In this document: in pieces, positions 1 to 63,528 of the stretch
Numbering within the stretch: the first letter of the stretch is position 1
Layout of the letters: every line of letters starts with the position of its first letter
Assembly: GCF_030528505.1 (NCBI RefSeq)
Contig: NZ_JAUMYS010000007.1
Coordinates: 1-63,636 of the forward strand
DNA from: Tannerella sp.
GTDB taxonomy: Bacteria > Bacteroidota > Bacteroidia > Bacteroidales > Tannerellaceae
Direction: 5' to 3'
DNA length: 63,636 nt
The notes under the pieces: generated by a model
The model's database searches: none
Seen by the model: only the letters and a program-made list of their open reading frames with translations
Told to the model about the DNA's origin: nothing
Position numbers and translations under genes: made by a program

Positions 1-43
1 GGTAGCCTAATCCCGGTTCGTCCGGTAGCCTAATACCGGTTCG
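1..43. repeat. Tandem 23-bp repeat at the left edge
   Basis: A 20-base unit starting GGTAGCCTAAT and ending CCGGTTCG occurs at 1-20 and again at 24-43. The copies differ at one base (unit position 12) and are separated by TCC, giving a period of 23. The array is cut by the window edge, so copy number is unknown. It lies just beyond the stop codon of the leftward gene at 46-780. Confidence 0.75.
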
Positions 44-45
44 AT

Positions 46-24135: not shown

Positions 24136-25155
24136 TTATTCAATCACCTTCACCCAGCCGTATTCGTCGGGTTCGTCACCGTATTGAATGGCACGCAACT
24201 TATGATACAAACGGGTACAAACAGGCCCTACTTTTCCATCTTTTGCAATGATGTACTGCTTCTCCTCATCCAGGTCGTCGATCTGAGAAATCGGGGCAAT
24301 TACGGCTGCCGTTCCGCATTCGGCCGCTTCGTCGAATGTCGCGATTTCTTCAAAAGGCACCGGACGACGCTCTACCGTCATGCCCATCTGCTCGGCAAGC
24401 TGCATCAGGCTCTTGTTCGTAATCGAGGGAAGAATAGATTCGGACGCAGGTGTGATGTACGTATTGCCGCGGATGCCGAAAAAGTTGGCAGGTCCGCATT
24501 CGTCGATGTACTTTTTCTCTTTCGGATCGAGGTAAAGTACGGCCGCGTATCCGCCCTTCCGCGCCTTTTCACCGGCCAAAAGACTGGCAGCATAATTCCC
24601 GCCGACCTTCACCATGCCCGTGCCATGAGGTGCTGCACGATCGTATCCGCGCATGATGCATACCTTCGACGGTTGGAAGCCATTCTTAAAGTAAGGACCT
24701 ACGGGTGTGACAAAAATGAGGAACAAATATTCGACAGCCGGTTTAACGCCCACCTGCGCTCCGGTTCCGATCAACAGCGGACGCAGATAGAGCGACGATC
24801 CGCTTTCGTAGGGAGGTATGAAACGTTGGTTCAACAAGACGACCTTGCGCACAGCCTCTTCAAATTTCTCTACTGGCAATTCCGGCATCAGGATTGCACG
24901 ACTTGACGATTGTAACCGTTTGGCGTTCTCGTCCATACGGAACACACGAATTTTACCGTCTTTACCCCGGAAAGCCTTCAGTCCTTCGAATGCTTCCTGA
25001 CCATAGTGCAAACACGTAGCGGCCATGTGGATATTAATCATTTCGGACGAAGATATTTCAATCTCGCCCCACTTGCCATCACGATAGCAGCATCTTACGT
25101 TATAATCCGTCTTCATGTATCCGAACGGAATTTCCGACCAATTGATATTTTCCAT
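24136..25155 (-). CDS. ilvE: Branched-chain amino acid aminotransferase
   Basis: 339 residues, class IV PLP-dependent transaminase interconverting Leu, Ile and Val with their 2-oxo acids using glutamate/2-oxoglutarate. The PLP lysine is Lys183 in GMVKVGGNYAASL. EAFEGLKAFRG (about 55-65), SLYLRPLLIGTG (121-132) and DECGPANFFG are further family motifs. Full length for the eukaryote-like/large BCAT subgroup. It is transcribed toward the lipoprotein gene; a -7-like CAAATGTA (minus strand, 25198-25205) lies about 43 bp upstream of the ATG. Confidence 0.96.
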   Translation of the reverse strand: MENINWSEIPFGYMKTDYNVRCCYRDGKWGEIEISSSEMINIHMAATCLHYGQEAFEGLKAFRGKDGKIRVFRMDENAKRLQSSSRAILMPELPVEKFEEAVRKVVLLNQRFIPPYESGSSLYLRPLLIGTGAQVGVKPAVEYLFLIFVTPVGPYFKNGFQPSKVCIMRGYDRAAPHGTGMVKVGGNYAASLLAGEKARKGGYAAVLYLDPKEKKYIDECGPANFFGIRGNTYITPASESILPSITNKSLMQLAEQMGMTVERRPVPFEEIATFDEAAECGTAAVIAPISQIDDLDEEKQYIIAKDGKVGPVCTRLYHKLRAIQYGDEPDEYGWVKVIE

Positions 25156-25197
25156 TTTGTTAGAGTTTAAAATTTACATAAAATAAAAATTGAACTG

Positions 25198-25205
25198 CAA
25201 ATGTA
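25198..25205 (-). promoter_or_regulatory. -7 element for ilvE
   Basis: CAAATGTA reads TACATTTG on the minus strand. Spacing to the ATG at 25155 is suitable, but a -33 TTG is not at the usual distance. Confidence 0.4.
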
Positions 25206-25342
25206 CATGATAATTTCTCAATTTCCACGCAGACCCACAAAAGTTTTACCATAAACCTGCGTTTAACGGCCGTGCGCCTTGTCTTTTGTTCTCATAAATA
25301 TAAAAATCCCTCCGAACGCTACAAACAACATTCGGGGGGATA

Positions 25343-25628
25343 CAGGGCAACCGCATCAAATTCCGGATCCGATGCCTATCGGATTGGCAACCGATGCTTA
25401 TCGGATTTTTTTTTATGCCTATCGGTTGGGAAACCGATGCCTGTCGGATTTCATTGTTTGGACCGACAGGCTGTCCTTTTTGTTTGACACCATGACCAAG
25501 GGTTACTTTTCAAGCATGTTAAGGTTCGTGAAAGCACGGTCTTTTCCGGCTCGGCCGGCATCTTGCCCGAAGGTGCCCGGCCGGATGTCGGTCGGGACAG
25601 TTCCTCGGAATTTGATGCGGTTGCCCTG
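25343..25628. mobile_element. MITE-like insertion with perfect 23-bp inverted repeats and 10-bp target duplication
   Basis: The outer ends are 25343-25365 (starting CAGGGCAACCGC) and 25606-25628, its exact 23-base reverse complement. Immediately outside, CGGGGGGATA occurs at 25333-25342 and again at 25629-25638 in direct orientation, the signature of a target-site duplication. The 286-bp element has no transposase or plausible gene. Inside lie the 22-bp-period palindromic units at 25369-25447 and a G/C-rich segment (25536-25600). It sits between the ilvE promoter region and the stop of the flotillin gene, 22 bp beyond the duplication. A non-autonomous element mobilised by a transposase elsewhere is inferred; the IS family is not identified. 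Confidence 0.85.
25369..25447. repeat. Array of four palindromic 14-mers, 22-bp period
   Basis: Units CCGATGCCTATCGG (25369), CCGATGCTTATCGG (25391), a degenerate copy (25412-25425) and CCGATGCCTGTCGG (25434) recur every 21-22 bp. The last pairs with CCGACAGG at 25463-25470. The second unit plus its T-run matches the repeat at 63503-63524 in reverse complement over about 22 bases. Confidence 0.85.
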
Positions 25629-25660
25629 CGGGGGGATAAAAGACTTTTTCTTCTCACACT

Positions 25661-27124
25661 TTACCTTTTCGTGGGCGGTTCTTTTCTTTCGGGAGCAGGC
25701 TCGGATTCCACAGGCTTCAGCGGAATCGTCGTCTTGTCGTCCTGTCCTTTGAGATACGACGGAAGATTCATTCCGGCCATGTTAAACAGATCGTTCAGCG
25801 GGGGAACGGATTTCATCAGCCCGGAAATAAAGTTGGCGGTCGAGGTCATTCCTTTGCCGTCTGCATTATTGCCATCCCAAACGGTAATCTTGTCAATCTT
25901 AATATTCTTGACGGCTTCCACCTGTGTTTTGACAAGCTCGGGCAATTTGTCGGTGATCAGCATCAGAACCGCCTTATCCGGATCGCTTCCGGCAGCACGC
26001 ACAAGACGATCGTACCCTTCGGCCTGCTTCGTAAGCACCTCGTAAATACCACGTGCTTCGGCATCCATCTTCGCAAAGATGGCATCGGCCTCACCTCGTG
26101 CTTTGCGACGCAGCTTCTCGGCCTCAGCTTCGGCATCGATGATCGCTTTTTCTTTCTCGATCTCTGCCGGAACAACCACGTTCGCCGTCTGCGTAGCCTT
26201 TTCACGTTCGGCACGCGTCAACTCGGCTTCGCGTTCCGACTGATAAGCTTCCTGCAACGCTTTTGCAGTCTGCACCTTTTCGGCTGCTACGGCTCGGCGT
26301 GCGGCTTCAGCCTCTTTCTCGCGACGCGTAGCATCGGAGTTCGCAATGGCAATCTTCGCGTTGTTCTCTCCTTCGACGGCCAATGCATTGGCTTCGGACG
26401 TACGGATACGCGTATCACGCAGGGTCTCTGCGATTCGGATGTCTTTGTCACGGTCGGCTTCGGCTTTACCGATTTCTCCGAAACGGTTCTGCTCGGCCAC
26501 ACTTTTCTTGGCTTCGTTGATTGCCTTGGCAGCAGCTTCTTTTCCGAGCGCTTCGATATAGCCTGATTCGTCACGAATATCGGTCACATTCACGTTAATC
26601 AACTTCAACCCAATCTTGCGAAGCTCGGCCTCGACGTTGGCACTGACGTTGGCCAGAAACTTGTCACGGTCGGCATTGATCTCCTCGATATCCATCGTGG
26701 CGATGACCAGACGAAGCTGTCCGAAAAGAATATCGGTCGCAATATTCTGGATATTGTGTGTATTTTGTCCCAGCAGACGTTCGGCCGCATTCGTCATGCT
26801 TTCCGGCTCGGTCGAAATACCGACGGTAAAGCGGCAAGGCACGTCTACACGGATGTTTTGCTTACTCAGTGCATTCGTCAGGTTGCACTCGATAGAAATC
26901 GGAGTCAAATCGAGAAACGCATAGTTTTGGAACACAGGCCATATAAAGGCGGCTCCTCCGTGAATACAGCGAGCGGAACTGACTCCCCCTTCCTTATTTC
27001 TACCCGTTTTTCCGTACACAACTAATATTTTGTCCGAAGGACAGCGTTTATAACGCGAAAGAATCGAAGCGAACGTCACAAACAAGACGGCTACGATGGC
27101 TACAATTAAATATAAACTTGGCAT
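25661..27124 (-). CDS. Flotillin/SPFH-domain membrane protein
   Basis: 487 residues: N-terminal membrane segment (about 3-22), SPFH domain (about 25-190), then long Ala/Glu/Lys-rich coiled-coil region (about 190-370, with AKKSVAEQNRFGEIGKAEAD-type repeats) and a C-terminal flotillin tail. Such proteins scaffold detergent-resistant membrane microdomains. The upstream gene encodes an NfeD-like OB-fold protein, the classic flotillin partner, only 35 bp away, supporting an operon. The final residues are Lys/Pro/Glu-rich. The 3' end lies just beside the MITE-like insertion. Confidence 0.92.
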   Translation of the reverse strand: MPSLYLIVAIVAVLFVTFASILSRYKRCPSDKILVVYGKTGRNKEGGVSSARCIHGGAAFIWPVFQNYAFLDLTPISIECNLTNALSKQNIRVDVPCRFTVGISTEPESMTNAAERLLGQNTHNIQNIATDILFGQLRLVIATMDIEEINADRDKFLANVSANVEAELRKIGLKLINVNVTDIRDESGYIEALGKEAAAKAINEAKKSVAEQNRFGEIGKAEADRDKDIRIAETLRDTRIRTSEANALAVEGENNAKIAIANSDATRREKEAEAARRAVAAEKVQTAKALQEAYQSEREAELTRAEREKATQTANVVVPAEIEKEKAIIDAEAEAEKLRRKARGEADAIFAKMDAEARGIYEVLTKQAEGYDRLVRAAGSDPDKAVLMLITDKLPELVKTQVEAVKNIKIDKITVWDGNNADGKGMTSTANFISGLMKSVPPLNDLFNMAGMNLPSYLKGQDDKTTIPLKPVESEPAPERKEPPTKR

Positions 27125-63477: not shown

Positions 63478-63528
63478 AGGGCTTAAAATCCGATAAGCAT
63501 AGAAAAAAATCCGATAAGCATCGGATTT
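63478..63528. repeat. Intergenic palindromic repeat, two units of 21-bp period
   Basis: TCCGATAAGCAT occurs at 63489-63500 and 63510-63521. The second copy completes a hairpin, AAATCCGAT (63507-63515), AAGC, ATCGGATTT (63520-63528), that could terminate the amylase transcript. The 14-mer CCGATAAGCATCGG is the exact reverse complement of the unit at 25391 inside the MITE-like element. The sequence begins CAGGGC, as does that element's end. Confidence 0.75.

Follow-up and report, generated by a model that had tools for sequence, protein, structure and literature searches.

Between the genes for flotillin and the branched-chain aminotransferase IlvE, a 286-bp segment with matching inverted ends lies in the window (the whole stretch of DNA analysed here, 63,636 nucleotides of a Tannerella sp. 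contig). What kind of element is this, which transposase family do its ends belong to, and what do its cargo and its site mean for the neighbouring genes? Comparisons among related genomes lead us to regard it, with high confidence, as a MITE of the ISAs1 type that recently transposed into the flotillin terminator. The kind of element is ordinary, and its minisatellite cargo is somewhat unusual.

Structure, empty site and insertion target

A repeat search of the window finds exact inverted repeats of 23 nt at the two termini, 100% complementary (Table 1). Even with up to three mismatches allowed, the window contains the 23-mer nowhere but at these termini, and none of 100 shuffles contains a match. 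The 10-bp direct repeat CGGGGGGATA, read from the sequence, flanks the element with 10 of 10 positions matching. Perfect 23-bp terminal inverted repeats, a 10-bp target-site duplication, a gene-free interior and a site beside the 3' end of the flotillin gene near ilvE had all been described in a first-pass annotation, and each holds: the element sits between flotillin and ilvE and has no supported ORF inside. The sole frame crossing it, a TTG-started frame of 157 amino acids on the + strand, extends into both flanks without support and is not a plausible gene. The element is thus short and without a transposase gene, and it combines terminal inverted repeats matching at 23 of 23 bp with a 10-bp duplication and an empty site, as is typical of a MITE. 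Two features go beyond the first-pass annotation, namely a tandem array of hairpin units inside the element and a duplicated target that is part of the flotillin terminator.

Table 1. Features of the element and its surroundings (positions in the window)
Feature	Position	Strand	Evidence
Target-site duplication, left copy CGGGGGGATA	25333..25342		Sequence read; single copy at the G014 empty site
Left terminal inverted repeat, 23 bp	25343..25365	+	First 18-20 bp also terminate an ISAs1-family element of G030
Palindromic minisatellite, 3.8 units of ~21-22 bp, hairpin CCGATGCCTATCGG	25369..25450	+	TRF and direct-repeat search
Element core outside the array	25451..25605	+	Partly common to decayed copy G014:C188 (82%, query 59-243) and G000:C67
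Right terminal inverted repeat, 23 bp	25606..25628	-	Inverted-repeat search
Target-site duplication, right copy CGGGGGGATA	25629..25638		Sequence read; G014 comparison
Flotillin/SPFH gene, upstream of the element	25661..27124	-	Pfam Band_7, 3.4e-28; NF058507, E 1.3e-52, below its cut-off
ilvE, branched-chain aminotransferase, downstream of the element	24136..25155	-	NF009897, 443.5 bits, cut-off 307
Flotillin intrinsic terminator hairpin, T run after	25306..25341	-	Folding and terminator scan; 5' arm shares bases with the left duplication copy
TACATTTG motif upstream of ilvE	25198..25205	-	Motif search; untouched by the insertion

The flotillin protein was searched in 61 genomes, 15 of which have a match (G000 being the element's own genome). 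Apart from the own genome, the closest flotillin is that of G014, which matches query positions 1-487 with a printed identity of 100%. The flotillin-ilvE junction of G014 carries one TATCCCCCCG and no element. If the element and one 10-mer are removed from the window, the remainder aligns to G014 through the junction without a gap, and nearby the two sequences differ by single substitutions and, near ilvE, by one 5-base gap. This is the empty site that the first-pass annotation had proposed to look for; a site with one 10-mer indicates recent transposition of a non-autonomous element, as had been claimed, and the ends, the duplication and the lack of a gene support the same reading. The locus therefore offers a clean example of recent MITE transposition together with its empty site. 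The junction has no blastn match in G030, which has the next best flotillin and other sequence behind it, nor at three further loci tried (L019-L021), so there is no outgroup for this site. The element could in principle be ancestral and have been lost precisely in G014 along with one 10-mer, and the age of its core and array in the lineage, with a decayed copy in corresponding positions of G000:C88 and G014:C188, is compatible with such a history. We consider this very unlikely, since the ends and the duplication of the window copy are fully intact whereas the old copies have decayed, and since such a precise loss of both element and repeat happens less often than insertion.

The duplicated 10-mer belongs to the 5' arm of the terminator hairpin behind flotillin. 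The G014 stretch that spans the empty site has a folding energy of -22.7 kcal/mol (z -4.36); that of the terminator copy beside ilvE in the window, which the terminator scan finds too, is -20.7 (z -3.94). Because the duplicated 10-mer contains the 5' arm, a complete hairpin persists on the ilvE side, and the duplication thus rebuilds the terminator that the insertion struck. Little effect on ilvE is therefore predicted from the folding, and flotillin transcripts are expected to continue into the element and gain an extra tail. The TACATTTG sequence, which we take to be a Bacteroidota-type -7 motif, is ~50 bases upstream of the ilvE start codon, with ~140 bases separating it from the element; neither strand of the element contains a TAnnTTTG motif.

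The element folds far better than its shuffles (z -9.84, pairing of the 23-bp ends included), and three terminator-like sites are found inside it on the + strand (four in the scanned region, versus 0.9 in shuffles). These features might suggest that it is primarily a structured RNA or a transcription-termination module whose mobility is secondary. However, the inverted ends and the palindromic units account for the strong folding, a terminator already existed at this site, and positions 25000-26000 yield no Rfam family (best E 0.23; 20.1 bits, gathering score 88). Such a primary role is accordingly unlikely, and we continue to treat the element as a MITE.

ISAs1-type ends and the missing parent

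The parent's family had been left open in the first-pass annotation, with IS4-like elements suggested. The frames scanned between ends of this type (L041, L159 and L171, and G034 by search) instead encode ISAs1-family transposase, full-length and open in G034 and split in G030, L159 and L171. The G034 frame is stop-free over 382 amino acids, and covers positions 1-314 of the ISAs1-family model NF033564; window-type ends bound it, one matching perfectly over 18 bp and the other with 1 mismatch. In G030, a one-contig genome, the same 18-bp ends bound a 1145-bp element whose split ISAs1 frames match the model, which has a cut-off of 70 bits, with 134 bits (6.4e-39) and, short of that cut-off, 60.5 bits (1.5e-16). 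Locus L159, from a Bacteroidales MAG, is a 1343-bp element with ISAs1 frames and an exact 9-bp duplication. Since the same ends occur on ISAs1-family elements in the genus, we assign the ends of the window element to the ISAs1 type. ISAs1-family elements produce duplications of 8-10 bp, a range that includes both the 10 bp at the window element and the 9 bp at L159. Direct comparison reveals no match between the interior of the window element and the ISAs1 element of G030.

Both the ends and the transposase family are widespread. The 18-bp end is found with at most one mismatch in 25 of 41 genus genomes, in which a reversed control pattern has 0 matches. A scan of genome contigs with the 20-bp end detects 84 stretches, of which 82 carry Bacteroidota names as read from their titles; the other two are titled as Chloroflexi and Anaerolineae MAGs, an assignment given by record title alone. 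Matches to NF033564 are present in 27 of the 41 genus genomes (15 over the cut-off) versus 3 of 14 control genomes. ISAs1 elements with other or distantly similar ends also exist in the genus, as seen at several checked loci that include the best-scoring ones of G004 and G023.

Minisatellite-bearing MITEs of Porphyromonas have IS5-type ends according to PMC4596501, and it could be imagined that the window element likewise descends from an IS4- or IS5-family element and resembles ISAs1 elements by coincidence. We find this scarcely credible, because, where frames were scanned, identical ends of 18-20 bp bound ISAs1 frames in several genomes, and the P. gingivalis IS5-type ends printed in that paper (GAGACCTTTGCA and similar) differ from those in the window.

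The assembly that contains the window is 91.6% complete, in 113 contigs, and the first 20 bp of the end match it with up to three mismatches at the two element termini and at a solo end (two mismatches) on C85. It holds one intact MITE and two decayed relatives, at C67 and C88. By the first-pass annotation, the lack of a second genomic copy of the ends would count against its reading: intact copies are indeed lacking in this assembly, in which only decayed ones occur (C67, C88 and C85), but intact copies are present in other genomes of the genus. No ISAs1 copy with window-type ends is found in the assembly. Its two ISAs1 fragments (C38 and C63) are followed by TTTAATGCGTCAGCCCTG-type ends and belong to a group with other ends, so the direct parent is absent from this 91.6%-complete assembly. 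The closest relatives of the element's inner part are only 82-86% identical, and the donor is therefore not among them.

A plausible course of events starts with a DDE transposase of the ISAs1 family, produced elsewhere in the cell, that would recognise CAGGGCAACCGCATCAAA-type ends and move the 286-bp element. The 5' arm of the flotillin terminator would be cut with a 10-bp stagger and the element joined to the cut ends, and repair would then give the 10-bp duplication; the palindromic array, of a kind old in the lineage, would be carried along. We infer action in trans by such a transposase, this route and the recent date.

Two further elements have unusual arrangements of these ends. At L041 (G030:C1:2504178-2505495), an ISAs1 element is followed 173 bp beyond by a second right end, which places two right ends in tandem. 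L060 (G014:C208:6123-6433), of 311 bp, resembles an inner deletion of an ISAs1 element in which both termini are partly kept, and no duplication is found beside it. Inner deletion of the kind seen in L060 is a possible route by which such MITEs originate.

Distribution and age of the palindromic array

With up to two mismatches, the array unit CCGATGCCTATCGG matches the own genome 28 times, G014 21 times and G026 6 times. In the remaining three genomes of this search, 1 to 3 matches occur, compared with 1 to 2 for reversed-pattern controls. Nine further array loci are present in the own genome (C23, C43, C48-end, C62, C67, C74, C81, C86-start and C88), a count that omits lone two-mismatch matches at C26, C59 and C73. 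For six of these nine (C23, C43, C74, C81, C86-start and C88), G014 has an array at the corresponding site, where the flanking sequences are 85-96% identical, which shows the array to be old in this lineage. The window copy stands apart from the other array loci: its ends are perfect, and it is missing from G014.

At C67 and C88, parts of the core are still present, along with one end in a decayed state. End remnants as good as theirs arise in 0 of 200 shuffles for C67, 6 of 200 for C88 and 7 of 200 for G014:C188, which is at the same place as C88 (C86-start was left out of this test). The insertion at C67 is absent from G014 and G026 but lacks a clean duplication. We considered whether every dispersed array in the own genome could be a decayed MITE and rejected the idea, as six loci (C81, C62, C74, C43, C48-end and C23) have no end remnant. 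C48-end and C86-start are two loci with only ~99 bases around the array in common.

Similar arrays lie at both ends of the contig. It starts, at window positions 1-45, inside another palindromic array (CCGGTAGCCTAATACCGGTTCG, ~22-23 bp), whose 18-base unit has 8, 10, 4 and 0 matches with up to three mismatches in G000, G014, G026 and G030 (reversed controls 3, 6, 2 and 2); at 0-1 mismatch, matches are found in G000 and G014. Near the other end, positions 63486-63524 form a 21-bp hairpin array as in the element. G014:C113 (L049) shares this array together with the ~55 bases that follow, and the other flank of L049 matches G000:C86-start, so an array with a short neighbouring stretch occurs at two places. 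Also, a AGTAGAGTAGT-type simple repeat lies beside a hairpin array at ~1575-1690 of L045 (G014:C170), and none is present at the same place in G000:C81.

Minisatellite cargo in the genus and in published systems

Related elements were collected from genus loci as TIR-bounded segments of 60-800 bp, with pairs picked from among the matches listed. The sample so chosen comprises 22 distinct elements in 10 families, as defined by blastn clustering. Duplications of 9-10 bp flank 14 of the 22 (eight exact, six with one mismatch), and eight have none; left flanks compared with the right flanks of other elements reach an equal score in 1 of 462 pairs. The duplications measure 10 bp at the window element and at three MITEs of G030 (one of these three exact, two with one mismatch) and 9 bp at the other ten. 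Those three MITEs, of 352, 478 and 394 bp, share with the window element the first 19 bp of the ends, 10-bp duplications and an inner palindromic array, but their array unit is 42 bp long and the similarity is confined to the ends.

Tandem arrays (score at least 60, period at least 15) are present in 11 of the 22 elements, which are members of 5 of the 10 families. The periods are 22 bp in the window family, 42 bp in that of G030, 21 bp in G022, 23 bp in L108/L118 and 21/42 bp in L119, whose family mate L116 has no array. Blastn clustering yields no mutual link among the five array-bearing families, and the window and G030 elements, compared directly, have only their ends in common. The units, 21-23 or 42 bp long, are unrelated in sequence.

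Two stronger claims about these arrays did not hold. Periods of 21-23 bp are not special to these MITEs, as they also occur in 23 of 76 tandem-repeat rows outside the elements (period at least 10, score at least 50, overlapping rows counted; 581,395 bases of the window and loci L155-L234). Minisatellites of this period are thus common in these genomes, which calls for caution about a recurring minisatellite cargo. Nor is every unit a hairpin: as dimers, three of five units (window, G030 and L119) fold better than all 300 shuffles, whereas 58 of 300 shuffles fold as well as the G022 dimer and 249 of 300 as well as that of L108/L118. In this test, the window unit was the form written from the sequence and the other units were TRF consensus sequences.

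The ISAs1-type ends could be a mobile frame that repeatedly acquires and spreads minisatellites in the genus, with arrays that have a selected role, for example in binding a protein or, as a portable module, in terminating transcription from both directions. We think this rather doubtful. If it is true, a selected role of the array would explain why the same design occurs with IS5-type ends in Porphyromonas.

Short gene-less elements with these ends occur in several Bacteroidales. Parabacteroides sp. RGIG9024 has a 136-bp element, bounded by this type of end, at four places (L191, L219, L220 and L223), each with its own exact 9-bp duplication. Bacteroidales ISAs1 insertion sequences (NCBIfam NF033564) share with the window element 18-20 bp of end sequence and duplications of 9-10 bp, but they carry a transposase and the window element does not.

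No description of the window element was found in the parts of the open-licence literature consulted, PMC9862357 included, and its parent IS may already be named in ISfinder. The main text of a review of prokaryotic MITEs (PMC10969869), in the passages searched, does not contain "ISAs1", "tandem repeat" or "Bacteroid". Within the literature searched, the only described combination of MITE and minisatellite is that of P. gingivalis, where the ends are of the IS5 type. PMC4596501 presents BrickBuilt as an intergenic MITE with a 23-nt minisatellite, predicted stem-loops and irregular duplications, and MITE464/PgRS as one with an inner minisatellite of 41 nt; the ends of both match IS5-family ISPg elements. 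Like the window element, as described there, both are MITEs with a minisatellite inside. Their ends begin with GAGACC or GAGACT in the paper's table and, compared by eye, differ from those of the window element, which begin with CAGGGCAACC. The family of the window element is now assigned to ISAs1, and the point worth following is the minisatellite cargo that recurs in these elements.
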